From contig NZ_CP048437.1 of NCBI RefSeq assembly GCF_010509575.1, forward strand, positions 2,914,001-2,978,000: 64,000 bases of DNA, written 5' to 3'. This document shows positions 3,592-17,000 of this stretch, piece by piece (the first letter of the stretch is position 1; every line of letters starts with the position of its first letter). The notes under the pieces were generated by a model, which saw nothing but the letters and a program-made list of their open reading frames with translations, was not told the DNA's origin and searched no databases. The stretch comes from Faecalibacterium duncaniae. GTDB lineage: Bacteria; Bacillota; Clostridia; Oscillospirales; Ruminococcaceae. Position numbers and translations under genes: made by a program.

Positions 3592-4437
3592 TCATTCTTT
3601 TTCAAACACGAGGAAGCGGAACGCGATGTCCGTGGTCAGCTCGGGCAGGGCGGCCAGGCGGGCCGCGCCATCCCGTGGCGTTTTCCAGTAATAGGGGGTC
3701 ATGGCGAACAGCGCCTCCAGCTGCCCGGCAGGCACCGTGATGCTGCCCGAGACTTCCCGCTCCCCGATGGGGCGGAAGCCCTCATAGGCCACCTCCTGCA
3801 CCGGGTTCTTGTAGGGCGTGTCGTAGAGGACAGCCTTCATCTGGTAGAGGTGCTCTGCACCGGGCACAACATAGATTATCCGTCCGCCCGGGCGCAGCAC
3901 GCGCCGGAACTCTTCCTGCGCAAAGGGCGAGAAGCAGTTGAGCAGCAGGTCGGCCCATCCGGTGCGGACAGGCTGGGCAAAACTGGATGCCACCGCGTAT
4001 TTTGCGGCAGGCAGTGCCTTTGCGGCCAGACGCACCGCAGGCTTTGCGATATCAAAGCCCGCCAGCTGCACCGACTGGCCCGCCTGTGCAAAGGCCTGTG
4101 CAATGCAGCGGTCGTACCAGCCCTCGCCGCAGCCCGCATCCAGCAGATGGAGCGGTGCATCTGCCCCGGCGGAAGCGCCGTACGCAAGGCACAGTTCCCC
4201 CAACGCCCGGCCGAAGATGCCGTAATACCCGGCGTTCAGGAAGGCACGGCGGGCGGCGACCATCTCTTTGCTGTCACCCGGGGCCTTGGTGCGCATACTC
4301 TGCACCGGCAGCAGGTGCCAGTACCCCTCTTTCGCCCGGTCAAAGCTGTGGTTCCTGCCGCATTTCAGGGCAGTGTCCCCGGTCAGGGGTTCGCCGCAGA
4401 GCGGGCACTGCCAGGGGGCAAACGGCTCAGGTTTCAT
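3592..4437 (-). CDS. rlmA: 23S rRNA (guanine-N1)-methyltransferase, RlmA family
   Basis: A 281-residue protein. The N-terminus has the zinc-binding pattern CPLC, then C and H, with the family motif [15 protein letters not shown] Rossmann SAM-binding loop follows ([13 protein letters not shown], about residue 90) and then a class I methyltransferase core. RlmA-type enzymes methylate G745 or G748 of 23S rRNA; the Gram-positive relatives are associated with macrolide/tylosin binding. The start at 4437 is inside the 3' end of the helicase gene (11-nt overlap), so the two are translationally coupled and rlmA is the last gene of a long minus-strand unit. Which G it modifies is not visible. Confidence 0.88.
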
Positions 4438-6352
4438 CGGTGTGATCCTCAATGGGTGCGGTGGCACCGCCGTGGGCGGTCATATACTCTTCAAAGTTGG
4501 TGAACTTCTGCTGGGGCGGGCGGCGGCTGATCAGCATTAGGCCCGGGTCCTCGTCCCGTGCGGGGGCGGCGTTCCGGCTGCGGCCGCGGGGTGCCTCGCT
4601 CTTGGCGGGGCGGGCCGGACGGCTGCTCTGCGCCGCATTGCGGCTGCCCTGCTGGCTCTGGCTGTTCTGGGCCGGGCGGGCATTGCGCGCATTCCGCTCT
4701 GCCCGCTGCTCGGTGCGCGGATCATTGCGGTCGGTGCGCTGCTCGGCACGGGCAGGCTGACCGCCGCGCTGACGCTGGCCGTTCTGGGCCGGAGCAGTCT
4801 GCTTTGCGGCAGGCTGCGCAGCCGGAGCCTTTTTGACCGGGCGCAGTGGGGTAGCCTCCGGGGCGCTCACAAAGTGGGGGTCGAATTTGGGCTGGGCGTT
4901 GCTGCCGCGGTTGGCCGGCTGCGGGGCATTGCCCTCGCGGCGAGTGCGGCTGTTATTGGAGCGGCGGTTCTCACTGCGTCCGCCGGAAGTGCGCTTCTGG
5001 TTTTCCTCCATGGATGTTCCTTCTTTCGGTTCGGTATTCTTGGGGCTGGGCTGTTTTGCAGCCGCTTTTTCCTTCTTGGGGACAGCGGGCTTTTCGGCCT
5101 TGGCTGCCTTTTCTGCTTTGGCAGGCTTCTCTGCCTTCACAGGCTTTTCCGGCTGCTCTGCTTCCGCCTTGGGCTTTTTGCCCCGCACCGGGGGCGCAGC
5201 CTTGACAGGGGCAGGCACGCCGTCCCAGGGGTGGCCGGAGACAACCGGGATCTGGCGGCGGTTCAGCTTTTCGATCCCGGCCAGATATTCCTTTTCCTCC
5301 GGGGCGCAGAAGCTGACGGCAGTGCCGTCGGCACCGGCACGGGCCGTGCGGCCAATGCGGTGGACGTAGGTCTCGGGCACCTCGGGCAGGTCGTAGTTGA
5401 ACACATGGGACAGCTCGCTGATGTCAATGCCGCGGGCGGCGATATCGGTCGCCACCAGCACCCGGGTCTTGCCCGCCTTGAAATCCTCCAGCGCCGTCAC
5501 ACGGGCGGTCTGGCTCTTGTTGCCGTGGATGGCGGCAGCGGGGATGCCCTGCTTGTTCAGGTCTTTTGCGATCTTATCGGCCCCGTGCTTGGTGCGGCTG
5601 AACACCAGCGCGTTCACCACCTCAGGCTTCAGGTTTTTGATGAGCCAGGGCAGCAGGAACTTCTTGTTGCCCTTCTCCACAAAATACAGGCTCTGCTGGA
5701 TGCGGTCCACCGTGCTGGACACCGGGTCCACCTTGACAAAGGCCGGATCATGCAGGATGCCTGCGGCCAGCTGCTCGATCTCCTTGGGCATGGTGGCGCT
5801 GAACATCAGGTTCTGGCGCTGCCTGGGCAGCTTGGCGATCACCTTTTTCACGTCGTGGACAAAGCCCATATCCAGCATCCGGTCGGCTTCGTCCAGAACA
5901 AAGATCTCAATGTTGGAGAGGTCCAGCAGCCCCTGCCCCACCAGGTCGTTCAAGCGGCCCGGGCAGGCAATGAGGATGTCCACGCCCTTTTTCAGGGCTG
6001 CGACCTGCGGAGCCTGACCCACACCGCCAAAGATGACGGTGCTGCGCAGGGTCAGATACTTGCCGTAGGCTTCAAAGCTCTCGCCGATCTGCAAAGCCAG
6101 CTCCCGGGTAGGAGTCAGGATCAGGGCGCGGATGGCACCCTTTTTGCGGGGCGCGCTGGCAGTCAGGCGGTCGAGCATGGGCAGCGCAAAGGCAGCCGTC
6201 TTGCCGGTACCCGTCTGGGCGCAGCCCATCAAGTCCCTCCCGGCCAGCACCGGCGGAATGGCCGCTGCCTGAATGGGCGAGGGGGATTCATAGCCCGCCT
6301 GTGCCACAGCACGCAGCACAGGCGCGGAAAGATTCAGTTCGTTAAATGTCAT
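4427..6352 (-). CDS. DEAD-box ATP-dependent RNA helicase with long basic C-terminal tail
   Basis: A 641-residue protein. Residues 1-360 carry the two RecA-like domains: Q motif, Walker A AQTGTGKT (residues 45-52), DEAD near residue 152, SAT, and [10 protein letters not shown]. The core resembles RhlE/CshA helicases that remodel rRNA and mRNA. From about residue 375 the tail is low complexity, first K/A/E/P-rich and then R/G/N/Q-rich, probably unstructured and RNA-binding. An in-frame ATG at 5011 (MEENQKRTS) has a GAAGGA site 6 nt upstream, so a 194-residue tail-only product is possible. The gene overlaps DUF1015 (ATGA) and rlmA, so it is part of an operon. Confidence 0.93.
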
Positions 6353-7647
6353 TCTTCACCTAAAATGTTTCTGCATTCCATATAATAGCGCTTTTCCTCT
6401 GCGTGCCCCATGCTGAAGGTCTTGCGGGGCAGCACACCACCCATAACGATGCCCTTGAACAGATCGCTCTTCTCAAAGGGCGGCATCAGGAAAGCCACAC
6501 CCCCCTGCCTGCACAGGGCGCGGACAGCGGGCTCATCGTGGACATAATCCACCCGGGCCTCGATGTGGCGGGCCATGAAATACTCAATGAATGCGTCAAT
6601 GGTGCCCACGGTCAGCGGGGCAACGGGATGTTCAAAGCTGAGCACATTGGCCACATGGGGGCCTGCCAGCGTAAAGGACTGCTGTTTTGCATCGCCGAAG
6701 CAGATGCCTGCCGCGTGGGAATCGCTCCACGCGATGAGGGCCAGCAGCACAGCACCGCAGTCCACATTGAAGAGGACGCGGTGGATGGGCTCGATCTCAA
6801 TGGCCGGAGAGTGGACATTGCAGACCTCAGCCAGGCACCAGCGGGCCGGGTGGGTCAGCTGCTGCTCCGGGGTCAGGGTCTTTTTCAGCTCCTCCCAGCA
6901 GGCCTTGGCGGAAGCCAGCGAATGGTTGCCGTCGCCCACGGCCAGCGTCAGGGGCGCGCCGCCCTTTGCCTGGGGATACCGGGCATCAAAGGCCTCCTGG
7001 CTGCCCAGAGCGTTCAGGGCGCTGTCGATCTGGGCCAGCAGGGCGGGATCTTCCACTGCCCAGCCGGCAATGTGGCCGCCGTTCAGCATCAGGTCGCCCT
7101 CGTAGACCTTGCGCAGCTGCTCCTTTTTCTCGCCGATGGGCTCGATGAGGGTGCAGCCGGGGTCATCGGCCAGCATCATAATATGGGGCGTTTCCAGCCT
7201 TGCCCCCCGGCGCACCGCCATGCGGGGCGGGATGCGGCTTTCCACGGTGTGCTCACTGGGGCGGATGGCAGGCACCGCACCCTCGGCATAGCTGTATGCC
7301 TCCAGGTCGATCTTGCCCACAAGGCCCTGCCGCACCCGGCCGCTCTGCTCGGTGCGCTCCACATAAATGAAGCCGTCCACCGCGCGGGTCAGCACGTTCC
7401 GGGTATAATCGTCCATGGCCGCATGGATGGCGCTGATCCTTGCATCCACGTCATCCTCTTCCAGATAGACCTCTGGCAGGATCAGGTCCAGTGTACTGGG
7501 GCCGCCTGCGGCGGCCTGCGCAGCCTTTTCCCAATAGGAGCGGTCACTGGTGAACTGATCGCAGGCCACACAGCCCCACTGCCCCACCGGGATCTGTTCC
7601 GACGGCAGCAGGATGTGCGCCGGGGAAAAACAGGGTGTTTTGTTCAT
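6349..7647 (-). CDS. DUF1015 family protein
   Basis: A 432-residue cytoplasmic protein recognised as DUF1015 from its overall pattern and the conserved segment [12 protein letters not shown] in the middle, plus HRVLF near the start of the last third. No reaction is established that I can assign safely. Some sources link the family loosely to ParB-like kinases, but that is not supported from this sequence. The start at 7647 follows a GGAGGGAAG ribosome site. Its stop overlaps the helicase start by 4 nt, so it shares a transcript with the genes on both sides. Confidence 0.82.
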
Positions 7648-7680
7648 AATACTTCCCTCCCTCTCACAAAAACGCAGGGA

Positions 7681-8790
7681 TCACTCAAAATAGCTGGCGG
7701 CATCGTCCCGGATGACCACATGCTCCACACCTGCCTCGGTCAGGGAGAGGGTCAGCTCCTCCCGGGCCGCTGCATCCAGCGTAGAGGAGGACGGGACCTT
7801 CACCAGCAGCTTCTTCACGCCCAGCTGGGCCGCAGGGGCTCCCAGCTGGCTGGAGGAGCCGGTCACCTCGGCCAGCGAATAACCGTACCAGAGCGTCACC
7901 GTATCTCCGAAGCGGGCCTGCCAGGCGGCGATATCCGCAGTCAGCTGCCCGGCACGGTCCACACCGTTGGTGGTGCCATAGTCCTGCTTGGCGCTGGTGG
8001 ACGAGGGGAACTGGACATTTTCCAGCAGCACCTGATCAAACCCGGCGGCGTGCACCTCGGCGATCAGATCGCCGATATACTGCACGGTCTCCGCAGCGTA
8101 GGGGTTCAGCCAGGGGTTGCCTCCGGCGGAAGCCTTGTTGTCCAGCCAGAGGTACTCCTGCCCCTGATACCGGATGGCCAGAGCGTGGTCGGCCCGGGCA
8201 CCGGCAGGGTCACGGAAGGCGGTCAGCGCAGCCACCGGCACCAGCCCCTCCTCCTTGAAGATGGATGCCACGCTCGTCAGCTCGACCTGCGTGGGGGCTG
8301 CATTGGCGGCACCCACTGCCGTCTGGGAGGCGTAATACACCTGCCCGGCGGTGTCCTTCAGGGTCAGGATGGCATAGGTCATGCCCTGTGCCTTGAGCTG
8401 CCGGGCGGCGGAGCGGATGGTTGCCTCGTCGGTCAGGGTGGTCACATCCACCTCTGCCCACAGGCCCGTCACAATATCAGTGCCCTTGACCTCGGGCTCC
8501 GGCTCCTTTTCCGGCACCGAGGAAGCTGCCGGTTCGCTGGCAGCGGTGCTCTGCGTCCCGGAGGATGCACTCTCGCTGACAACACTGGATGCGGAAAGGT
8601 CACGATCCCGCACCACGGTATACCAGGTGTGGGTGGCCCAGTCCAACACATGGGGCGCGGCCACCCAGGCCGCTGCCAGCACGGCCACCACCAGCACCGC
8701 AATGCCGATGCCCTTTTTCAGCCGCATCTCGCGGGTGTAAAAGCTGCGCCGGTAGCGCTTGACCTTCTGGCGTTTGGGATATCTTGCCAT
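7681..8790 (-). CDS. Membrane-anchored putative glycoside hydrolase (DUF4015-like)
   Basis: A 369-residue protein. A basic N-terminus (residues 1-25, MARYPKRQKVKRYRR) is followed by one transmembrane segment (about 28-46), then an S/A/E/P-rich linker to residue 110, then a TIM-barrel-like domain with WAEVDVTTL, AILTLKD, LWLDNKAS and VLLENVQFPSS. This matches the putative glycosyl hydrolase family with extracytoplasmic barrel domains; acidic residues at strand ends (D, E) are present but the substrate is unknown. The ATG at 8790 was chosen over a TTG at 8796 because AAGGAGG sits 9 nt upstream. It lies between the rnfA-like gene and DUF1015. Confidence 0.7.
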   Translation of the reverse strand: MARYPKRQKVKRYRRSFYTREMRLKKGIGIAVLVVAVLAAAWVAAPHVLDWATHTWYTVVRDRDLSASSVVSESASSGTQSTAASEPAASSVPEKEPEPEVKGTDIVTGLWAEVDVTTLTDEATIRSAARQLKAQGMTYAILTLKDTAGQVYYASQTAVGAANAAPTQVELTSVASIFKEEGLVPVAALTAFRDPAGARADHALAIRYQGQEYLWLDNKASAGGNPWLNPYAAETVQYIGDLIAEVHAAGFDQVLLENVQFPSSTSAKQDYGTTNGVDRAGQLTADIAAWQARFGDTVTLWYGYSLAEVTGSSSQLGAPAAQLGVKKLLVKVPSSSTLDAAAREELTLSLTEAGVEHVVIRDDAASYFE

Positions 8791-8816
8791 AATCAACCAC
8801 CCTCCTTGGGGTCAAC

Positions 8817-9425
8817 TTACAGGATCACGGAATGGCCGGTAAAGCCGTAGATGGCCAGCGCCAGCACACCGATATAGATCAGGGTGATGGGCAGGCCGCG
8901 GAATGCTTCAGGGATGGCCTTGCTGCGCAGGCGGTTGCCCGCCTCGGTCACCAGCATCACAGCCAGCAGGTAGCCCAGGCCGCTGCCCAGGCCAAAGCCG
9001 ATGGACTGCGCCAGCGTAAAGCTCTGGGTGCGCTCCACCAGCACGGTGCCCAGCACGCCGCTGTTCACGGCGGCAATGGGCAGGATGCGGATGAGCAGGC
9101 CGCTGCGGGGGCCCTTGACCGCCCGCAGGATGGCGTGCTCAAAGATGCAGACCATCGCCACACAGGCCAGGTAGAGCAGCGGGCGGAGCTGGGCACGGTA
9201 GGGCAGATCCACGATCTGGCTGCCCGCAAAATACGCCAGCGGGGCCACCAGCGTCTGGGTAACACAGAGCAGCAGGGCAAACCACCAGCTGCTGGTGCGC
9301 TCGTCACCCACCAGCTGGATCAGGCGCGACACGCCCAGACCACGGGTAAAGATGGCGTTCTGGGCAAACAGGGCCAGCACGGCGTAGGCAAAGGCCACAC
9401 CGATGGTATTCATCACAGCACTCAC
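8817..9425 (-). CDS. RnfA/NqrE-like membrane subunit lacking the iron-sulfur cysteines
   Basis: A 202-residue protein with six membrane segments. The C-terminal pattern AFRGLPITLIYIGVLALAIYGFTG matches RnfA/RsxA closely. In RnfA the two half-membrane helices each carry a cysteine, in motifs like GLCPF and TTNCAVLG, that binds a membrane-embedded [2Fe-2S] cluster with RnfE. Here the first is GLGVSRL (Ser33) and the second is AVNSGVLG (Ser122), so both ligands are gone. Other cysteines (54, 88, 93) are elsewhere. The start at 9425 overlaps the rnfE-like stop (ATGA). Fold assignment is firm; electron transfer is doubtful. Confidence 0.8.
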   Translation of the reverse strand: MSAVMNTIGVAFAYAVLALFAQNAIFTRGLGVSRLIQLVGDERTSSWWFALLLCVTQTLVAPLAYFAGSQIVDLPYRAQLRPLLYLACVAMVCIFEHAILRAVKGPRSGLLIRILPIAAVNSGVLGTVLVERTQSFTLAQSIGFGLGSGLGYLLAVMLVTEAGNRLRSKAIPEAFRGLPITLIYIGVLALAIYGFTGHSVIL

Positions 9426-10141
9426 TGATCCTGCACCTCCTTCCGGGGGTGCGCAGCCAGAGTGCCGCGCGCCTCAGTTTTCAGGTATTCCTTGTGTTTG
9501 CGGGCCAGCGCGCGCCAGACGGCACACACCACGCCCAGCACGATGAAACCGCCTGCCGGCATGGATGCCATGGGCAGGACAGAGCGGCTGAGCTGGACCC
9601 CAAACACACTGCCCAGCGCCAGCCACTCCCGCAGGCAGCCCACGATGAACAGGATGAGCGCGTAGCCCACCGTGATGCGCAGACCCTTGGAGACAGCCTT
9701 GCGCATGGTTTCCTGCACACGGCCAAAGCGGTAGGTCAGCAAGGGCTCCACCACCAGCATGGGCAGGTAGATGCCCAGCATCAGCAGGTCGGTGCCGAAC
9801 ACAGCGTTCAGGATGGGATAAGCGGCAAGGTAGACCACCGCCGCACTGCCGCTGTACACCAGCGCCCGGGGCAGCAGCTTTTTCTCCAGCTCTTCCGGGG
9901 CGGGCTGCTCGTCCCGCAGGGGGAACAGGCGGCTGACCAGGCAGGCCAGCATCCGGGAAGGCGTGAGCAGCAGGGCCACAGCCACGGCCAGCATCAAAGC
10001 ATTTTTGCCTGTGGTGGCAAGCACCACCAGCGGAGCCAGACCCATGCCCTGCATGACAACGGGATTGTTTTTGAACACCCGGTCATGGTGGGCGAACTTT
10101 TCAGGATCACGGGTGATCAGTTCTGCAATGGAACGTTTCAT
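9422..10141 (-). CDS. RnfE/NqrD-like membrane subunit lacking the iron-sulfur cysteines
   Basis: A 239-residue membrane protein. It keeps the family N-terminus (KNNPVVMQGMGLAPLVVLATT) and the LREWLALGSVFG segment. The expected first cysteine, in GLCPLLAVT of RsxE, is Ala36. The second, in IVTNCIVVGRAEAF, falls at VVEPLLTYRFGR, giving Pro133. A charged loop (about residues 76-92) is longer than usual. The stop overlaps the rnfA-like start and its start overlaps the rnfD-like stop, so the three are cotranslated. It is homologous to the Rnf/Nqr subunit but should not bind the cluster. Confidence 0.78.
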   Translation of the reverse strand: MKRSIAELITRDPEKFAHHDRVFKNNPVVMQGMGLAPLVVLATTGKNALMLAVAVALLLTPSRMLACLVSRLFPLRDEQPAPEELEKKLLPRALVYSGSAAVVYLAAYPILNAVFGTDLLMLGIYLPMLVVEPLLTYRFGRVQETMRKAVSKGLRITVGYALILFIVGCLREWLALGSVFGVQLSRSVLPMASMPAGGFIVLGVVCAVWRALARKHKEYLKTEARGTLAAHPRKEVQDQ

Positions 10142-11142
10142 TCAGCGCCCTCCTTTCCGGCCGCAGGGCGGTGCATCAGCTGATACAGGCGGCTCTCGGT
10201 GCGGTCCATCCAGCCGGAAATGCTGTTGACCGTGAGCAGGGCAAAGCAGACACCCGTCTCGTACACGCCGTAATACCGGAAGCCCATGGTGATCGCACCC
10301 ACCAGCACACCGTACAGGATGCGGCCCAGACGGTGGTGGGCGCAGGTGTAGGGCTCGTTGAGCAGGAACGCCGCGCTGAACAGCATGGCACCGGTCAGCA
10401 GCTCGTCCCGCACGCACTGCAGGCGCAGGGCGATGTCCACGCCGTTCACCCCCACCTGACGGGGGAAGAGGAAGGCGATGAGGGCACAGGTGACCACAAA
10501 GCTGACAGAAGCGCCCAGACGGACATCCTTTTGCAGCCAGAGGAAAAGCCCGCAGGCCAGAAGGATGAGGGCGGCACCCGTGCCCATGGGGGCGGCGTAC
10601 TCGCCCAGCACCAGCGAAATTGCGCTGATGTTCAGGCTGCCGCCGCTGCGCAGGGTATCCGAGATGGTGCTGGACACCGGCACGTCTGTGGCATCCCACA
10701 GGGGGATGTTGGTATAGGGCTGGGGGTAGCGGAACACCTGCTCCGGCCAGGACACCGCCGCCACGGCGTAACCCACAGCAGCGGGGTTGAAGGGATAGCT
10801 GCCGTAGCCGCCGAACACCTCCTTGCCGATGAGGACACCGGCCAGCACCGCCATAATGACCACATACCAGTCCACCGTGGCGGGCATGAGCAGGGCGATG
10901 ATGAGGGCAAAGCTCTCGTTGGAGAAATCCCCGGCCCGATACACGCGGCGGCGCAGCAGGGAGACCAGGCGGTCACACAGATTGCCGGTGAGCAGCGCCG
11001 CGCCGCAGAGCAGCAGGGGCCGCAGACCGTACAGGAAGCAGGCCATGCAGAGCAGCGGGATGGTCATAAAGCAGACGTGCAGATAGTACCGCCCCGTCTT
11101 TGCAAGCTCCTGCTCCTGCTGCTGGATCAAACGTTCATCCAT
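10138..11142 (-). CDS. RnfD/NqrB-like membrane subunit
   Basis: A 334-residue protein with about nine membrane helices. GGYGSYPFNPAAVGYAV and the late segment LTGAMLFSAAFLLNEPYT match RnfD/RsxD. The flavinylation region, usually an S-x-A-T-P-L type motif with FMN bound to Thr, is replaced by VSSTISDTL near the same place; a Thr is present but the motif is not canonical. The ATG at 11142 was chosen because upstream in-frame codons run back into rpe. It follows rpe by 13 nt. No rnfG lies between it and the rnfE-like gene, and no rnfB or rnfC is present in the window. Confidence 0.78.
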   Translation of the reverse strand: MDERLIQQQEQELAKTGRYYLHVCFMTIPLLCMACFLYGLRPLLLCGAALLTGNLCDRLVSLLRRRVYRAGDFSNESFALIIALLMPATVDWYVVIMAVLAGVLIGKEVFGGYGSYPFNPAAVGYAVAAVSWPEQVFRYPQPYTNIPLWDATDVPVSSTISDTLRSGGSLNISAISLVLGEYAAPMGTGAALILLACGLFLWLQKDVRLGASVSFVVTCALIAFLFPRQVGVNGVDIALRLQCVRDELLTGAMLFSAAFLLNEPYTCAHHRLGRILYGVLVGAITMGFRYYGVYETGVCFALLTVNSISGWMDRTESRLYQLMHRPAAGKEGAE

Positions 11143-11155
11143 GGTAAGGCACCTC

Positions 11156-11806
11156 TCACAGGGCGGCCAGACGGCGCACTGCCGCAGCCGGGTCGGCTGC
11201 GCCGAACACGGCACTGCCCGCCACCAGAATATCGGCACCCGCCTCCACACACAGGGGGGCGGTGGTGTCATCCACGCCGCCATCCACTTCCAGCAGGTAG
11301 CGGGCGCTCCGCTTTGCCCGCTCTTCCTTGAGCCAGCGCAGCTTTTCCAGCGCCGAGGGCATGAACTTCTGCCCGCCGAAGCCGGGCTCCACGCTCATCA
11401 CCAGCACCAGATCCAGCTGGTCGAGATACGGGGCCAGCGCCTCCGGCGCAGTACCGGGCTTGATGGTCAGGCCCACCTTGCAGCCCAGTGCCTTGACCGC
11501 ATCGATGGTCTGCTGGATGTCGTCCTCGCACTCGAGGTGGAAGTTGTACAGGCTGGCACCCGCCTTGATGAAAGGCTCTGCATACTGCAGCGGGTGGCTG
11601 ATCATCAGGTGGACATCGTAGAATGCTGCGGGCATCCCCTTGTGCAGGCTTTTCAGCACCGGCACGCCAAAGCTGATGTTGGGCACAAAGTGGCCGTCCA
11701 TCACGTCATAATGCAGCATCTGCGCACCGGCATCCAGCACCATGCGGCAGTCTGCGCCAAGCTGATTGAAATCAGCCGAAAGGATCGAAGGACTAATGAT
11801 CGTCAT
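11156..11806 (-). CDS. rpe: Ribulose-phosphate 3-epimerase
   Basis: A 216-residue TIM-barrel enzyme interconverting ribulose-5-phosphate and xylulose-5-phosphate in the pentose phosphate pathway. The N-terminus ISPSILSADF, the metal-site segments HYDVMDGHFVPN and HLECE, the phosphate-binding VMSVEPGFGGQKF and the final EVDGGV and GSAVFG are all family signatures with catalytic Asp and His in place. It is first in the minus-strand run that continues with the rnfD-like gene 13 nt later, so it is probably the promoter-proximal gene. Confidence 0.95.
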   Translation of the reverse strand: MTIISPSILSADFNQLGADCRMVLDAGAQMLHYDVMDGHFVPNISFGVPVLKSLHKGMPAAFYDVHLMISHPLQYAEPFIKAGASLYNFHLECEDDIQQTIDAVKALGCKVGLTIKPGTAPEALAPYLDQLDLVLVMSVEPGFGGQKFMPSALEKLRWLKEERAKRSARYLLEVDGGVDDTTAPLCVEAGADILVAGSAVFGAADPAAAVRRLAAL

Positions 11807-12007
11807 TGTGTTTTATACTCTCCGTTATTTTTCAGAAAGATTACACCATCCGTTCTGCCAGAGCACCTGTTTTGGGGCCGGAATGCAGGGCGGGCATGGT
11901 TACTCTTAGTTTACATGAAAACACGCAAAAAATCAAACCCGGAGCCGTGTTTTTCACGGAAAAGTCTCAAACCTGCCCCCGGATACATCCAAAATCCATT
12001 CCAAAAC

Positions 12008-12052
12008 CAAAAACGACCAGACCGCCCCGCCCGTTTCAGGGGGACAGTCTGG
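12008..12052 (-). terminator. Terminator of the two-component operon
   Basis: On the minus strand an imperfect GC-rich stem (CCAGAC with GTCTGG, and CCCC with GGGG) is followed by a T-rich tract, 9 nt after the histidine kinase stop. Confidence 0.7.
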
Positions 12053-12060
12053 CCGCGGAT

Positions 12061-13575
12061 TCAGTTGACAGGCTTCATGCTGGCGGGGTCCTCCACCGGC
12101 ACGGGCTGACCGGATTCGTCCGGCAGGCGCTTCATGCCGCTGGGGTTGGGGGGCGTGGCGGGCAGGGTGAACACGAACTGACACCACTCGCCCTGCTGGC
12201 TCTCCACACGGATCTGGCCTCCGGAAAGGTTGACCAGCACCTTGCAGATATTCAGGCCAAGACCGGCCCCCCGGGCGTGCAGGCCGCGGGACCTGTCCTC
12301 TTTGTAGAAGCGCTGGAACACATAGGGCAGCGCCTCGGGGCTGATGCCCTGACCGGAATTCCAGATCGAGATCTCCACCTCGGGGCCCAGCTTCTCCACA
12401 TGGAACTTGATGGTGCCGCCCGCCGGGGTAAACTTGATGGCATTGTCCAGAATGTTATAAGCCACCTGATGGATGAGGTCGGGGTCCGCGTAGACCAGCA
12501 CCTTTTCATCCATGGTCAGGCCTTCCAGATCGATCATGCCGTCGTTGATGCGCTGCTCCGCCGAAAGGGCCACACCGGTGAGCGTCTCCCAGATGTTGAA
12601 CATCCGGGCATTCACCTGATACTCGCCGCTTTCCAGCTTGGAGAGATCGAGCATATTCTGGATGAGCCGGGCCAGGCGGCCGGTCTCCTCGCTGACCAGC
12701 TGCAGGTAGTGGTTCTGCATATCGGGCGGGATGGTGCCGTCCAGAATGCCGTCCACAAAGCCCTTGATTGTGGTCATGGGGGTGCGCAGCTCGTGGGCGA
12801 TGTTGCCCATGAACTGGCCGCGGGAATTGTCGTTGGACTGGATGTTCTCCGCCATCTGGTTGAAGGTGTGGGCCAGATCCACCACTTCGCCCTCACCTTC
12901 CACGCCCTCGACACGGACAGAGAAGTCCCCGCCGCCGAACCGCTGGGCGGCATCGGTGATCTTCTGGAGCGGGTCGGTCAGCTTCCGCATCAGGAAGGAG
13001 GTCAGCACACTGGCGCAGAGCAGCATGACGCAGGCCGAGAAGAAGAAGTTCGACCAGAATTCCTCCTTGAAGTCGGTCAGCCGCGCGCCGGAGGAGCAGA
13101 GGAAGAGATAGCCGCTGTTGTTGCCCTGTGCATCCTGCATGTGCCGCACCGAGACATAGCTCTTCTCGGTCAGCACACCGTCCAGCGTACTCAGGGTGTG
13201 GTAGGGCTGATCCCCGGCAACTTTTTCCATAAGCTCCGGCCCCACAATATCTGTTCCCACCATCTCGGGGTTGGAGGCAATGAGGATCCTGCCCTCTTCA
13301 TCGGTGAAAAAGAGGTAAGCCTCGGCGCTCTCGCCGATGATCTCCAGCTTGGTGTTCAGGGCATCCAGCTCGGCCCCCTTGGGCAGAGCCGCCTGCTGCA
13401 CGATATAATCCGCCGCGCGCTGGGTCACATCCGCCACGCTGTCCAGCGTGTCGTACCGCTCCTGGGCAAAATAACGGCTGAACAGCAGCCACTCGGAGCA
13501 GCCCAGCACCGCCGTGCCCAGCACCAGCAGGGTGGCCACCATCGAAAAGAAGGTGACCGAAATACTTTTGCGCAT
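12061..13575 (-). CDS. Sensor histidine kinase
   Basis: A 504-residue membrane kinase. TM1 is at residues 8-30, followed by an extracytoplasmic PAS/CHASE-like sensor region, TM2 near 165-190 and a HAMP linker. The HisKA domain has the phosphorylated His in HELRTPMTTIKGF. The HATPase domain has N-box, G1 and G2 features (DNAIKFTPAGG, GLGLNICKVL). It phosphorylates the response regulator encoded just upstream, whose stop overlaps its ATG by one base (TAATG). The architecture resembles PhoR/WalK-type kinases, but the stimulus cannot be read. Confidence 0.93.
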   Translation of the reverse strand: MRKSISVTFFSMVATLLVLGTAVLGCSEWLLFSRYFAQERYDTLDSVADVTQRAADYIVQQAALPKGAELDALNTKLEIIGESAEAYLFFTDEEGRILIASNPEMVGTDIVGPELMEKVAGDQPYHTLSTLDGVLTEKSYVSVRHMQDAQGNNSGYLFLCSSGARLTDFKEEFWSNFFFSACVMLLCASVLTSFLMRKLTDPLQKITDAAQRFGGGDFSVRVEGVEGEGEVVDLAHTFNQMAENIQSNDNSRGQFMGNIAHELRTPMTTIKGFVDGILDGTIPPDMQNHYLQLVSEETGRLARLIQNMLDLSKLESGEYQVNARMFNIWETLTGVALSAEQRINDGMIDLEGLTMDEKVLVYADPDLIHQVAYNILDNAIKFTPAGGTIKFHVEKLGPEVEISIWNSGQGISPEALPYVFQRFYKEDRSRGLHARGAGLGLNICKVLVNLSGGQIRVESQQGEWCQFVFTLPATPPNPSGMKRLPDESGQPVPVEDPASMKPVN

Positions 13576-14273
13576 TACTGACGCACCTCGAACTTATAGC
13601 CCACGCCCCAGACGGTCTTGAGCTCCCACTTGTCGGAAGCGCCTGCCAGCTTTTCGCGCAGGCGCTTGACATGGACATCGATGGTGCGGCTGTCGCCGTA
13701 GTACTCAAAGCCCCATACCTCGTCCAGCAGCTGGTCGCGGGTGTAAACACGGTTGGGGTGGGAGGCCAGGCAGTTCAGCAGCTCCAGCTCCTTGGGGGGA
13801 GCCTCCACCACCTTGCCCTTGACCCGCAGCTCATAGCTGTTCATGTCCAGCCGCAGGTTGTCGAACTCGATCACGCCCTCGGTGCTCTCGGTCTGGGCGG
13901 TGGTGGTGGTGCAGCGGCGCAGCACCGCCTTGATGCGGGCCACGACTTCCTTGGTGTCAAAGGGCTTGACCATGTAATCGTCCGCGCCCAGCTCCAGGCC
14001 CAGCACCTTGTCAAAAGTCTCGCCCTTGGCGGTCAGCATCATCACGGGGGTGTTGCCCAGCTTGCGGATGCGGCGGCAGACCTCCAGGCCATCCATCTTG
14101 GGCATCATCACATCCAGCAGCACCATATCGGGCTTGACCTGATTGAACTTGTCCAGACCTTCTTCGCCGTCGTTCGCGGTGGTGACCTGGTAGCCCTCTT
14201 TGGTCAGATAAAGCCGCAGCAGCTCGCAGATGTTGGTATCGTCGTCCACGACGAGGATCTTTTCGTTGGCCAT
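13575..14273 (-). CDS. OmpR/PhoB-family response regulator
   Basis: A 232-residue protein. The receiver domain has the acidic pair VDDD, the phosphoacceptor Asp in VLLDVMMPKMDG, and conserved Thr (MLTAKG) and Lys (YMVKPF). A winged-helix OmpR-type DNA-binding domain occupies the last 100 residues (VYTRDQLLDEVWG, RTIDVHVKRLREK). The start at 14273 has a GGGGAGGAAACC ribosome site; an in-frame upstream ATG at 14336 lacks one. Coupled to the kinase by a one-base overlap. Target genes are unknown. Confidence 0.94.
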   Translation of the reverse strand: MANEKILVVDDDTNICELLRLYLTKEGYQVTTANDGEEGLDKFNQVKPDMVLLDVMMPKMDGLEVCRRIRKLGNTPVMMLTAKGETFDKVLGLELGADDYMVKPFDTKEVVARIKAVLRRCTTTTAQTESTEGVIEFDNLRLDMNSYELRVKGKVVEAPPKELELLNCLASHPNRVYTRDQLLDEVWGFEYYGDSRTIDVHVKRLREKLAGASDKWELKTVWGVGYKFEVRQ

Positions 14274-14409
14274 AGTGGTTTCCTCCCCAATTCTGTATGT
14301 TCCGGCCCTTTCGGGCCTTGTGACAAAGTATTCCACTTCTTATTATACGGAAGAGTTATGACAAAATAAAGAAGGTTTTGTATGATTTTTAGGACGCAGG
14401 CTCCGCCGC

Positions 14410-15690
14410 TCAGCTCATCATCAGCCGGATGATCTCCTCATTGGTCTGCCGCATCCCGTCCTTGCCCAGACGTCCAATGCCCTTGATGGTGGTCTCGATG
14501 TCCTTCATCACGATGCCATCGCCGCCCTTGAACTCCTGATTGCACTTGTACATGTTGTAGCCCAGCAGCGCCGCATCCACCGAAGATGCGATCTTTGCGG
14601 CGCAGGAAGCCTTGGCTCCGTCGCACACGATGCCGGACACGATGGCAAGGGCGTTGACCACCGTGTGGATGGCAGCCTGATAGCCGTCGCCGCACAGGTA
14701 CACGATGCCTGCGCCTGCACCCGCACCCGCGCTGACCGCGCCGCAGTAGGCAGACAGGGTGCCGATGCCGGTCTTTTCGTGGATGGCCACCAGATTGGAG
14801 ATGATGAGGGCGCGGTAGAGCTTTTCCTTGCCGCTGTGCAGCTCCTTGGCGTACTCGATGAGGGGCACCGAACAGGTGATGCCCTGATTGCCGCTGCCGG
14901 AGTTGATGATGACCGGCAGCTCGCAGCCGTTCATGCGGGCATCGGAGCCGGCGGCGGCCTTGGCTTTTGCGCGGTTGGAGACATCGTTGCCGTAAGTGGT
15001 CAGCAGCACCCGCCCGATGTTGGCACCGTAGTCGCCCAGCAGGCCCTCTTCTGCAATGGCGTTGTTGTAGCGGATCTGCCGTTCCAGCAGGTCTGCCACG
15101 TCCCGCAGGTCGGCGGTCTCGGCAAAGTCCCAGATGTCCTGCATGTTCAGCAGGCTGCGGTCGGCGCGGGCATCCTCCTGCACGGTCTCGTCCAGCAGGG
15201 GCACCTCGTACAGCACCGTGCCGTTCTTCTCGATGCGGCAGATGTTGGTGTGGTAGTCCGCGATGCGCACCCGGGCGTAGTCCTGCCCGCAGCGCTCGGT
15301 GACGACGATGTCAAACACATGCCCCTGCTCGGTGTGCTCGATGGTGATGGGCACCGTCTGCAGATAGTCCCGGATGGCAGACTTCTTTTCCTCGCTGACC
15401 TCCGAGATGACCTCCAGCTCCTTCTCGGCGGAACCGGCGATGATGCCTGCCGCCACCGCCGCCTCCATGCCCTTCAGGTGCCCGGTGTTGGGCACGATGA
15501 CGCTTTTCACGTTCTTGATGATGCTGCCGCTCACCTGCAGCTGCACGCTGTCCGGCAGCACCCCCAGCACCTCGCGGGCTTTTGCCGCCGCATAGGCCAG
15601 CGCGATGGGCTCGGTGCAGCCCATCGCCGGGATCAGCTCCTCCTTCAGGATCTCCACATAAGCCTGATAGCGCGGGTCGTTGCGTTCCAT
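14410..15690 (-). CDS. L-cysteine desulfidase / L-serine dehydratase-like protein (UPF0597, YhaM family)
   Basis: A 426-residue cytoplasmic enzyme. The segment AMGCTEPIALAYAAA near residue 25 and later Cys positions (GNQGITCSVP, GIVCDGAKASCAAKI) match the iron-sulfur-dependent YhaM/CyuA family related to serine dehydratase. Characterised members break cysteine into pyruvate, ammonia and sulfide. The ATG at 15690 was chosen because GGCAGGAGG lies just upstream; the longer in-frame start at 15786 runs through the promoter. Monocistronic, divergent from ychF. Substrate assignment is by family. Confidence 0.85.
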   Translation of the reverse strand: MERNDPRYQAYVEILKEELIPAMGCTEPIALAYAAAKAREVLGVLPDSVQLQVSGSIIKNVKSVIVPNTGHLKGMEAAVAAGIIAGSAEKELEVISEVSEEKKSAIRDYLQTVPITIEHTEQGHVFDIVVTERCGQDYARVRIADYHTNICRIEKNGTVLYEVPLLDETVQEDARADRSLLNMQDIWDFAETADLRDVADLLERQIRYNNAIAEEGLLGDYGANIGRVLLTTYGNDVSNRAKAKAAAGSDARMNGCELPVIINSGSGNQGITCSVPLIEYAKELHSGKEKLYRALIISNLVAIHEKTGIGTLSAYCGAVSAGAGAGAGIVYLCGDGYQAAIHTVVNALAIVSGIVCDGAKASCAAKIASSVDAALLGYNMYKCNQEFKGGDGIVMKDIETTIKGIGRLGKDGMRQTNEEIIRLMMS

Positions 15691-15738
15691 AACATCCTCC
15701 TGCCTTCCCTTCCGGAAATCGGTTCGTATTTTAAGAAC

Positions 15739-15767
15739 AGTATAATATAGAACTCCCGCCGTGTAAA
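15739..15767 (-). promoter_or_regulatory. Promoter of the cysteine desulfidase-like gene
   Basis: On the minus strand TTTACA and TATACT are separated by 17 nt, about 49 nt upstream of the start at 15690. Confidence 0.6.
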
Positions 15768-15790
15768 TCCGTTGTTTTGCGCCCATCCCC

Positions 15791-15819
15791 TTGCGCTCCG
15801 GGGTTTCATCGCGTATAAT
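15791..15819 (+). promoter_or_regulatory. Promoter of ychF
   Basis: TTGCGC and TATAAT are separated by 17 nt, 47 nt before the start codon. It lies back to back with the minus-strand promoter just to its left. Confidence 0.65.
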
Positions 15820-15866
15820 GATAGTTGTATCGTTATGCCAAAAAACGTGTAAGGAGCGTATTTTAT

Positions 15867-17000
15867 ATGAAGTTAGGTATCGTCGGTCTGCCGAACGTCG
15901 GCAAGTCCACTCTGTTCAACGCCATCACTTCCACCAAAAACGCGGAAGCCGCCAACTACCCCTTCTGCACCATTGAGCCCAACAGCGGCATCGTGGCCGT
16001 GCCGGACAAGCGGCTGGACAAGCTGGCCGAAATCTGGCAGACCAGCAAAAAGACCCCTGCCATCGTTGAGTTTGTAGACATCGCCGGTCTGGTCAAGGGT
16101 GCCAGCCAGGGTGCAGGCCTGGGCAACAAGTTCCTGGGCCACATCCGCGAGTGCGATGCCATCGTGCACGTGGTGCGCTGCTTTGATGACGACAACATCA
16201 TCCATGTGGTGGAGGACGTGACCAAGGCCGAGGCCGTGGACCCCATCGCCGACATCGATGCCATTGACTACGAGCTGATCCTCTCTGACCTCGAGGTCGT
16301 TCAGAACCGCGCGGGCCGGATGGCCAAGGCTGCCAAGAGCGGCAACAACAAGGGGGCTGCCGCAGAGGCTGCCTGGCTGCAGAAGCTGGCCGACCACCTG
16401 AGCGCAGGCAAGCCCGCCCGCAGCTTTGACTTTGACGAGGGGGATGCCGAGCAGCAGGCCGTGCTGCACGAGATGGGCCTGCTGAGCTCCAAGCCCGTGC
16501 TCTACGCCTGCAACGTGGGCGAGGATGATCTGATGGAGGGCATTGAGAACAACCGCTATGTCCCGCTGGTGGCCGCCCGCGCCGCCGAGGAGGGAGCCCG
16601 CTACATTCCCATCTGCGCCAAGACCGAAGAGGACATTGCCGACTACTCCCCCGAGGAGAAGAAGGCTTTCCTGGCCGAGATGGGCATCGAGGCCAGCGGC
16701 CTGGACAACCTGATCACTGCCAGCTACGACCTGCTGGGCCTCATCTCCTTCCTGACCGACGGCAAAAAGGAGTGCCGTGCCTGGACCATCCGCAAGGGCA
16801 CCAAGGCACCTCAGGCCGCCGGTAAGATCCACAGCGATTTTGAGCGCGGCTTCATCCGCGCCAGCGTCATCGGCTATGGCGACCTGGAAGCCAACAACTT
16901 CGATTATGCCGCTGTTAAGGCCAAGGGCCTGCAGCGCACCGAGGGCAAGGAGTACGTCGTGAAGGACGGCGATGTGATCGAGTTCCTGTTTAACGTCTGA
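15867..17000 (+). CDS. ychF: Redox-regulated ATPase YchF (Obg-family P-loop protein)
   Basis: A 377-residue protein. Walker A is [14 protein letters not shown] at residues 7-20, switch II is [22 protein letters not shown], a coiled-coil insert lies in the middle and a TGS domain closes the protein ([10 protein letters not shown]). YchF binds ATP rather than GTP because the usual NKxD specificity motif is replaced, here by the CNVGEDD region. It associates with ribosomes and stress responses. The start at 15867 follows AAGGAG; a longer in-frame start at 15825 is rejected because it precedes the ribosome site. Confidence 0.96.

Follow-up and report, generated by a model that had tools for sequence, protein, structure and literature searches.

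An Rnf-family D-E-A membrane trio with lost or altered cofactor sites in Faecalibacterium and related gut bacteria

The Rnf complex and the Na+-translocating NADH:quinone oxidoreductase (Na+-NQR) have homologous membrane cores. According to PMC4014512, it has been proposed that NQR derives from a duplication of rnf accompanied by loss of rnfB. The ion path through these enzymes is debated and has been placed in the A/E subunits (PMC11889175) or in NqrB (PMC10643135). Partial sets of Rnf/Nqr genes are also described for NQR/RNF-like flavinylation clusters, which contain a protein binding flavin mononucleotide (FMN) and an NqrB-NqrF fusion and are regarded there as redox systems (eLife 2021, PMC8238504). 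Here, we analyze a stretch of 64,000 nucleotides from Faecalibacterium duncaniae, corresponding to positions 2914001-2978000 in a genome of 3.10 Mb that consists of one contig, and referred to as the window throughout. It carries three genes for RnfD-, RnfE- and RnfA-like proteins, designated D', E' and A', which together form a trio whose relation to the known redox-driven complexes is the subject of this work.

With the Rnf complex, the trio shares its sequence families, the fold of the D subunit, the D-E-A gene order, the gate phenylalanines and Arg67 of RnfE. It differs from Rnf by the lack of the [2Fe-2S] cysteines, of the covalent-FMN motif and of adjoining genes for RnfB, RnfC and RnfG, by an altered riboflavin pocket and by its neighbor rpe, the gene for ribulose-phosphate 3-epimerase. 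Its membrane core is likewise homologous to NqrB, NqrD and NqrE. However, NQR retained its core cofactors and gained NqrF, whereas the clade to which the trio belongs lost the cluster as well as the FMN of the D subunit. Unlike the flavinylation clusters, the trio comprises neither an FMN-binding protein nor an NqrB-NqrF fusion, and D' has the PF03116 domain alone. D' also resembles Amt/Rh ammonium channels and urea transporters, in fold only and with 6-12% identity. To our knowledge, these transporters have no partners of the A/E type. In PMC12174285, the likeness to the Amt fold is ascribed to RnfD/NqrB proteins generally. A full-text literature search yielded no article recognized as dealing with such a complex among the matches listed, judged on titles and abstract openings, and as far as these matches show, the clade, its stage with a degenerate RnfC and the loss of covalent FMN from the D subunit are new. 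The trio is also a conserved membrane complex without assigned role in the gut bacteria Faecalibacterium, Gemmiger and their kin, where one A' protein is named only by its domain.

Cofactor sites of the trio

As reported in PMC11889175, the [2Fe-2S] cluster of Rnf is held by C25 and C113 of RnfA and by C25 and C108 of RnfE. An original prediction, made from the nucleotide sequence of the window, had placed Ser33 and Ser122 of A' and Ala36 and Pro133 of E' at these sites. Alignment to solved chains (7zc6_A, 9eri_A and 7xk3_E for A', 7zc6_E and 9eri_E for E') proved this assignment right at all four positions; Pro133 is preceded by Glu132. The window trio therefore has none of the four cluster cysteines and offers the ligands required by neither RnfA/RnfE nor NqrD/NqrE. 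The prediction had also named Cys54, Cys88 and Cys93 of A' as cysteines that might occupy the cluster site instead. Such displaced ligands were ruled out, as the site nowhere shows a full complement of four cysteines. Of 109 rows, 47 have cysteine in the column of Cys54 and 89 in that of Cys88, columns occupied by Ile and Val in native RnfA. The column of Cys93 is cysteine in no more than 30% of rows. Counts of 107 to 109 rows, here and below, cover the window, the named loci (the best 80 of 105 found), the 16-kb neighborhoods and eight loci of the class sample, with near-identical rows kept in. Cysteine is absent from the positions of RnfE C25 and C108 (0/107 rows each) and RnfA C25 (0/109), and occurs at that of RnfA C113 in 43 of 109 rows. 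The replacements are themselves conserved, with Ser at RnfA C25 in 96/109, Ala at RnfE C25 in 97/107 and Pro at RnfE C108 in 89/107 rows. Clade members whose A' and E' were read retain at most two of the four cluster cysteines.

The flavin sites of D' are affected as well. The covalent-FMN motif at the threonine site of RnfD/NqrB, described by the pattern [ST]xA[TS]P that was set from A. woodii and native RnfD sequences, was found in a single one of 120 D' rows and is absent from D' of the window. Riboflavin is bound in NqrB by a pocket including T162, G198, N200, A205, F342 and D346, according to PMC10643135, and N123 and D249 are given as riboflavin residues of A. woodii RnfD in PMC11889175. 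At eight pocket positions the window D' reads F, G, Y, N, A, F, F, E, compared with T, G, N, N, A, F/L, F, D in the canonical rows. Five of the eight are thus kept, among them the Asn at the position of A. woodii N123, and three are changed, i.e., T162 to Phe, N200 to Tyr and D346 to Glu. On this comparison the riboflavin pocket of the window D' is altered but need not be empty. Transport of riboflavin by D', an idea prompted by the pocket and by rpe, was set aside in view of these changes and for want of any other hint in its favor.

None of the genes rnfB, rnfC and rnfG adjoins the trio in the window, and no match to FMN_bind is present within it. NqrA, NqrC and NqrF were not among the six proteins scanned around the trio, the whole genome not having been searched for NqrA or NqrF. 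A second, complete rnfCDGEAB operon, a search for which had been advised in the original prediction, was found about 200 kb away from the trio. It has all four cluster cysteines as well as SSAT in RnfD and SGAT in RnfG. With a complete and normal operon in the same genome, the trio is a paralogue.

Because the cluster ligands and the covalent-FMN motif are gone, the pocket is altered and no B, C or G gene lies beside the trio, it is well supported, as far as sequence can tell, that the trio cannot pass electrons by the usual Rnf route. The original prediction had arrived at the same view from the cysteines and the missing genes, and the changes in D' now extend its basis. Its further proposal of a transporter or ion channel is one that we can only infer. 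A role in transport is favored because the fold, the gate phenylalanines and RnfE Arg67 are kept, and, as the likeliest explanation, we hold with moderate confidence that D'E'A' may be a redox-silent transporter for an ion or a small solute built on an Rnf core. Alternatively, the trio could serve as an alternative or regulatory core that joins the canonical RnfC, RnfB and RnfG proteins and so yields an Rnf that leaks, is inactive or is tuned differently. The complete canonical Rnf in the same genome and the D fold common to both would be in line with this. However, K32 and E158 of RnfA, which face RnfB, are each kept in only 2 of 109 rows, the trio resides after rpe and far from the canonical operon, and some relatives encode a degenerate RnfC of their own beside it, which points to a separate complex. 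We therefore regard a partnership with the canonical subunits as unlikely.

Besides rnfG, the genome of the window contains further matches to FMN_bind, some of them clustered (G000:C1:1228574-1229880, 1448845, 1969831-1970472 and 2548616), and a single match to ApbE at 1074809. These may be related to extracellular electron transfer.

Deviating cluster sites were also encountered outside the clade. The locus L268:1875-6322 (G595) is a C-D-G-E-A operon with no sign of rnfB within the 8 kb that were read. Three of its four cluster cysteines are replaced (Ser/Cys in A, Ala/Gly in E), but both D and G retain their FMN motifs; the A/E cluster was apparently lost here independently, together with rnfB. 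In the complete rnfCDGEAB operon L269:1390-6850 (G240), Gly takes the place of the second cysteine of RnfE, and RnfA has its first cysteine one position off. G240 also holds a second Rnf-type match.

Clade, selection and neighboring genes

Of the 31 genomes of the genus, 29 contain A' (E 5e-58 or better), and the other two are 79-80% complete. Its nearest named relatives stem from Faecalibacterium, with 82% identity to F. hattorii and the same value for a protein of F. prausnitzii labelled 'Rnf-Nqr domain containing protein'. Each of the best 30 E' loci from 198 genomes of the family has the whole trio, with identities falling to about 35%. The named loci include Faecalibacterium, Gemmiger, Ruthenibacterium, Fournierella, Anaerofilum, Pygmaiobacter and Subdoligranulum. 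Ratios of nonsynonymous to synonymous substitutions (dN/dS) were determined for 22 genus loci by a simple counting method. For the eight closest pairs they amount to 0.08-0.19 for A', 0.10-0.24 for E' and 0.07-0.17 for D'. For all pairs with dS 0.1-1.2, the dS of distant pairs being uncertain, the medians are 0.33, 0.36 and 0.32, respectively, with 0.73 as the highest value. The trio is thus under purifying selection, and the low ratios rule out a pseudogene. A functionless, decaying remnant of a duplicated rnf operon would explain why genes and cofactor sites were lost one after another, but the low dN/dS in close pairs, the near-complete presence in the genus and the retention of all three genes across such distances render this explanation hardly credible.

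In a tree of 76 RnfD-type proteins, comprising 61 D' (below 70% identity, readable pocket columns) and 15 canonical rows and obtained by a quick search without bootstrap, D' is split from the canonical rows by a branch with a value of 100 in the Shimodaira-Hasegawa-like approximate likelihood ratio test (SH-aLRT). Close to the base of the clade, the order of several forks is uncertain. The best 30 D loci in a class sample of 293 genomes consist of nine of the trio type, all from the order of the window, and 21 that were called canonical by neighbors or motifs. One of the latter, L128, scored best with the trio D model, yet its D has SSST and its E retains both cysteines. In a phylum sample of 299 genomes, no genome other than that of the window exceeded 186 bits (window, 475). 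Within the genomes sampled, the clade was therefore seen only in the order of the window; note that these are samples and not proof of absence elsewhere.

The genes of the trio and those next to it are compiled in Table 1. Both joints within the trio are 4-base overlaps, and since all three proteins lie above their Pfam cut-offs, they represent D, E and A membrane subunits encoded in one operon-like run. The subfamily cut-offs of NCBIfam were missed in each case (rnfD 147.9/207, rnfE 45.8/213, rnfA 65.4/229). No Rfam RNA above threshold was found at 4000-16000 of the window.

Table 1 Genes of the D-E-A trio and its surroundings (window positions; aa, amino acids; TM, transmembrane)
Gene or product	Position	Strand	Basis of assignment
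D', RnfD/NqrB-like 10-TM-type subunit, 334 aa	10138..11142	minus	PF03116, 192.7 bits (Pfam)
E', RnfE/NqrD-like subunit, 239 aa	9422..10141	minus	PF02508, 81.5 bits (Pfam)
A', RnfA/NqrE-like subunit, 202 aa	8817..9425	minus	PF02508, 75.4 bits (Pfam)
rpe, ribulose-phosphate 3-epimerase, directly upstream of the trio	11156..11806	minus	NCBIfam TIGR01163, 249.5 bits
DUF4015 putative glycoside hydrolase, directly downstream of A'	7681..8796	minus	PF13200, 54.7 bits
Sensor histidine kinase, upstream of rpe	12061..13575	minus	HATPase_c, HisKA, HAMP
Response regulator, upstream of the kinase	13575..14336	minus	Open reading frame, named from its own sequence

In the original prediction, rpe and the glycoside hydrolase-like gene had been singled out as neighbors worth following in related genomes. 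Only the first proved constant: rpe adjoins D' in all 74 named loci with 3.5 kb upstream (71 by script, 3 by eye), while the DUF4015 gene adjoins A' in 44 of 79. A function common to rpe and the trio is possible. In a set of 21 neighborhoods, made up of the window and 20 others, rpe was found in 20, DUF4015 in 16, and the families of kinase and regulator in 11 each; rpe was missed in L099, perhaps through the choice of open reading frame. The trio could also be a sensor or transceptor which reports a ligand or ion to the neighboring kinase and regulator, comparable to sensor-Amt proteins. This appears distinctly improbable, given that in 10 of the 21 neighborhoods no such pair was found and that the likeness of D' to Amt is one of fold only, described as general to RnfD/NqrB proteins (PMC12174285).

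The degenerate RnfC and the history of the clade

The RnfC-like protein of some relatives, designated C', was called at 260 bits or more against a model built from seven C' proteins, with the next match at 228. It is present in 19 of 395 genomes of the order and was found in none of the 80 named loci. The order rpe-C'-D'-E'-A' on one strand is seen in all 14 loci with sufficient flank, i.e., ten further C' loci together with L109, L112, L115 and L116. In L109 and L112 an opposite-strand gene lies between rpe and C'. L235, one of the 19 loci, is on a short contig with no visible D'. The eight cysteines of the Fe-S motifs are intact in all 19 proteins. A regular expression for the glycine-rich FMN/NADH loop yielded nothing in 16 of them and only short matches, placed elsewhere by eye, in the other three. 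The Nuo51 FMN-binding domain, which reaches 139.6 bits in native RnfC at a cut-off of 31.2, remained below the cut-off in three of the four C' scanned (20.9-25.2 bits) and had no match in the fourth. The window genome is devoid of C'. Its sole RnfC-type match at E 1e-30 or better, with E 2.8e-36 far weaker than any C', is taken to be canonical RnfC. The original statement that rnfB, rnfC and rnfG are missing beside the trio thus holds for the window, but for rnfC it does not extend to the whole clade: because some relatives hold an RnfC-like gene at that place, the lack of rnfC is lineage-specific.

D' encoded beside C' keeps T162 in 16/16 readable rows, N200 in 15/18 and N203 (N123 of A. woodii) in 16/18, compared with 4/92, 3/94 and 26/94, respectively, for D' without C'. 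The comparison comprises 123 rows, excluding D' below 230 aa and repeated sequences; these originate from mixed searches in which C' loci are over-represented, and for loci with short flanks the absence of C' rests on the order-wide C' search or on a few hundred bases. The three rows without C' in which the pocket is intact, L073-L075, are all from one genus, and the order-wide search gave no C' in their genomes. With kinship counted on the tree, the link between C' and the riboflavin pocket is not significant. C' changes three times, and because well-supported branches provide a single independent pair of rows, the pattern represents a consistent history and not statistical proof. Of 98 rows without C', 92 (84 of 89 different sequences) carry an acidic residue, Glu or Asp, at RnfE 107, and the others carry Asn. 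With C', it is Asn in 9/9 rows, and the ten further C' loci have Asn in nine cases and Ser in one. These ten retain the first E cysteine in two cases (L270 and L271) and the second A cysteine in seven. As C' loci mostly have the pocket, while those without C' mostly lack it and carry Glu/Asp-Pro, the sequences suggest that redox function was lost stepwise following a duplication of rnf.

Hidden redox activity via another cofactor also has to be considered, be it haem, a quinone or a flavin that sits non-covalently in the changed pocket of D'. C'D'E'A' of relatives would be the fuller version, in which electrons pass between riboflavin bound to D' and the two [4Fe-4S] clusters carried by C'. 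The invariably intact Fe-S cysteines of C' and the mostly preserved pocket next to it argue for such a role, as do the five pocket positions retained in the window D'. However, the window has no C', its D' is changed at T162, N200 and D346, and no Fe-S cysteines are present at the sites. We consider hidden redox activity improbable.

The redox-silent transporter, to which our moderate confidence applies, can be described more specifically. D'E'A' originates from a duplicated rnf operon that would first have lost rnfB, rnfG and, almost clade-wide, the [2Fe-2S] cysteines of A/E and the covalent-FMN motif of D. At this stage C'D'E'A' with its two [4Fe-4S] clusters may pass electrons to riboflavin only. 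Later, C' would have been lost, the riboflavin pocket altered and the Glu/Asp-Pro of E' gained in the lineage of the window, while some relatives retain both C' and the pocket. D' would provide a pore similar to that of Amt and urea transporters with a two-phenylalanine gate, and A' and E', an inverted-repeat pair, would alternate access. According to PMC11889175, Na+ is held near the reduced cluster by neighboring backbone, namely at V106 of RnfE and T111 of RnfA. It is this proximity that gives rise to the idea of a fixed charge, in which the carboxylate of Glu/Asp-Pro would replace reduction of the cluster as the attractor for Na+ in the lineage of the window. A redox-driven Na+ pump would in this way have been turned stepwise into a constitutive cation transporter with a permanent carboxylate, within a clade that still contains intermediates including C'D'E'A'. 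We put this conversion of a pump into a cation transporter forward tentatively, as one possibility. A natural core without electron path that is under selection and has living intermediates would allow transport to be separated from redox chemistry, and if D'E'A' moves ions, it would identify which part of Rnf and NQR is the pore.

The C'D'E'A' loci L270 and L271 (G804 and G751) keep the first RnfE cysteine in the motif GLCP, and D' of G804 has TAASP. These loci are possible early intermediates of the clade. In L109, L110, L111, L112 and L114, a conserved gene of about 180-215 aa, in opposite or divergent orientation, is situated between rpe and the trio; its product may resemble the adaptor MecA.
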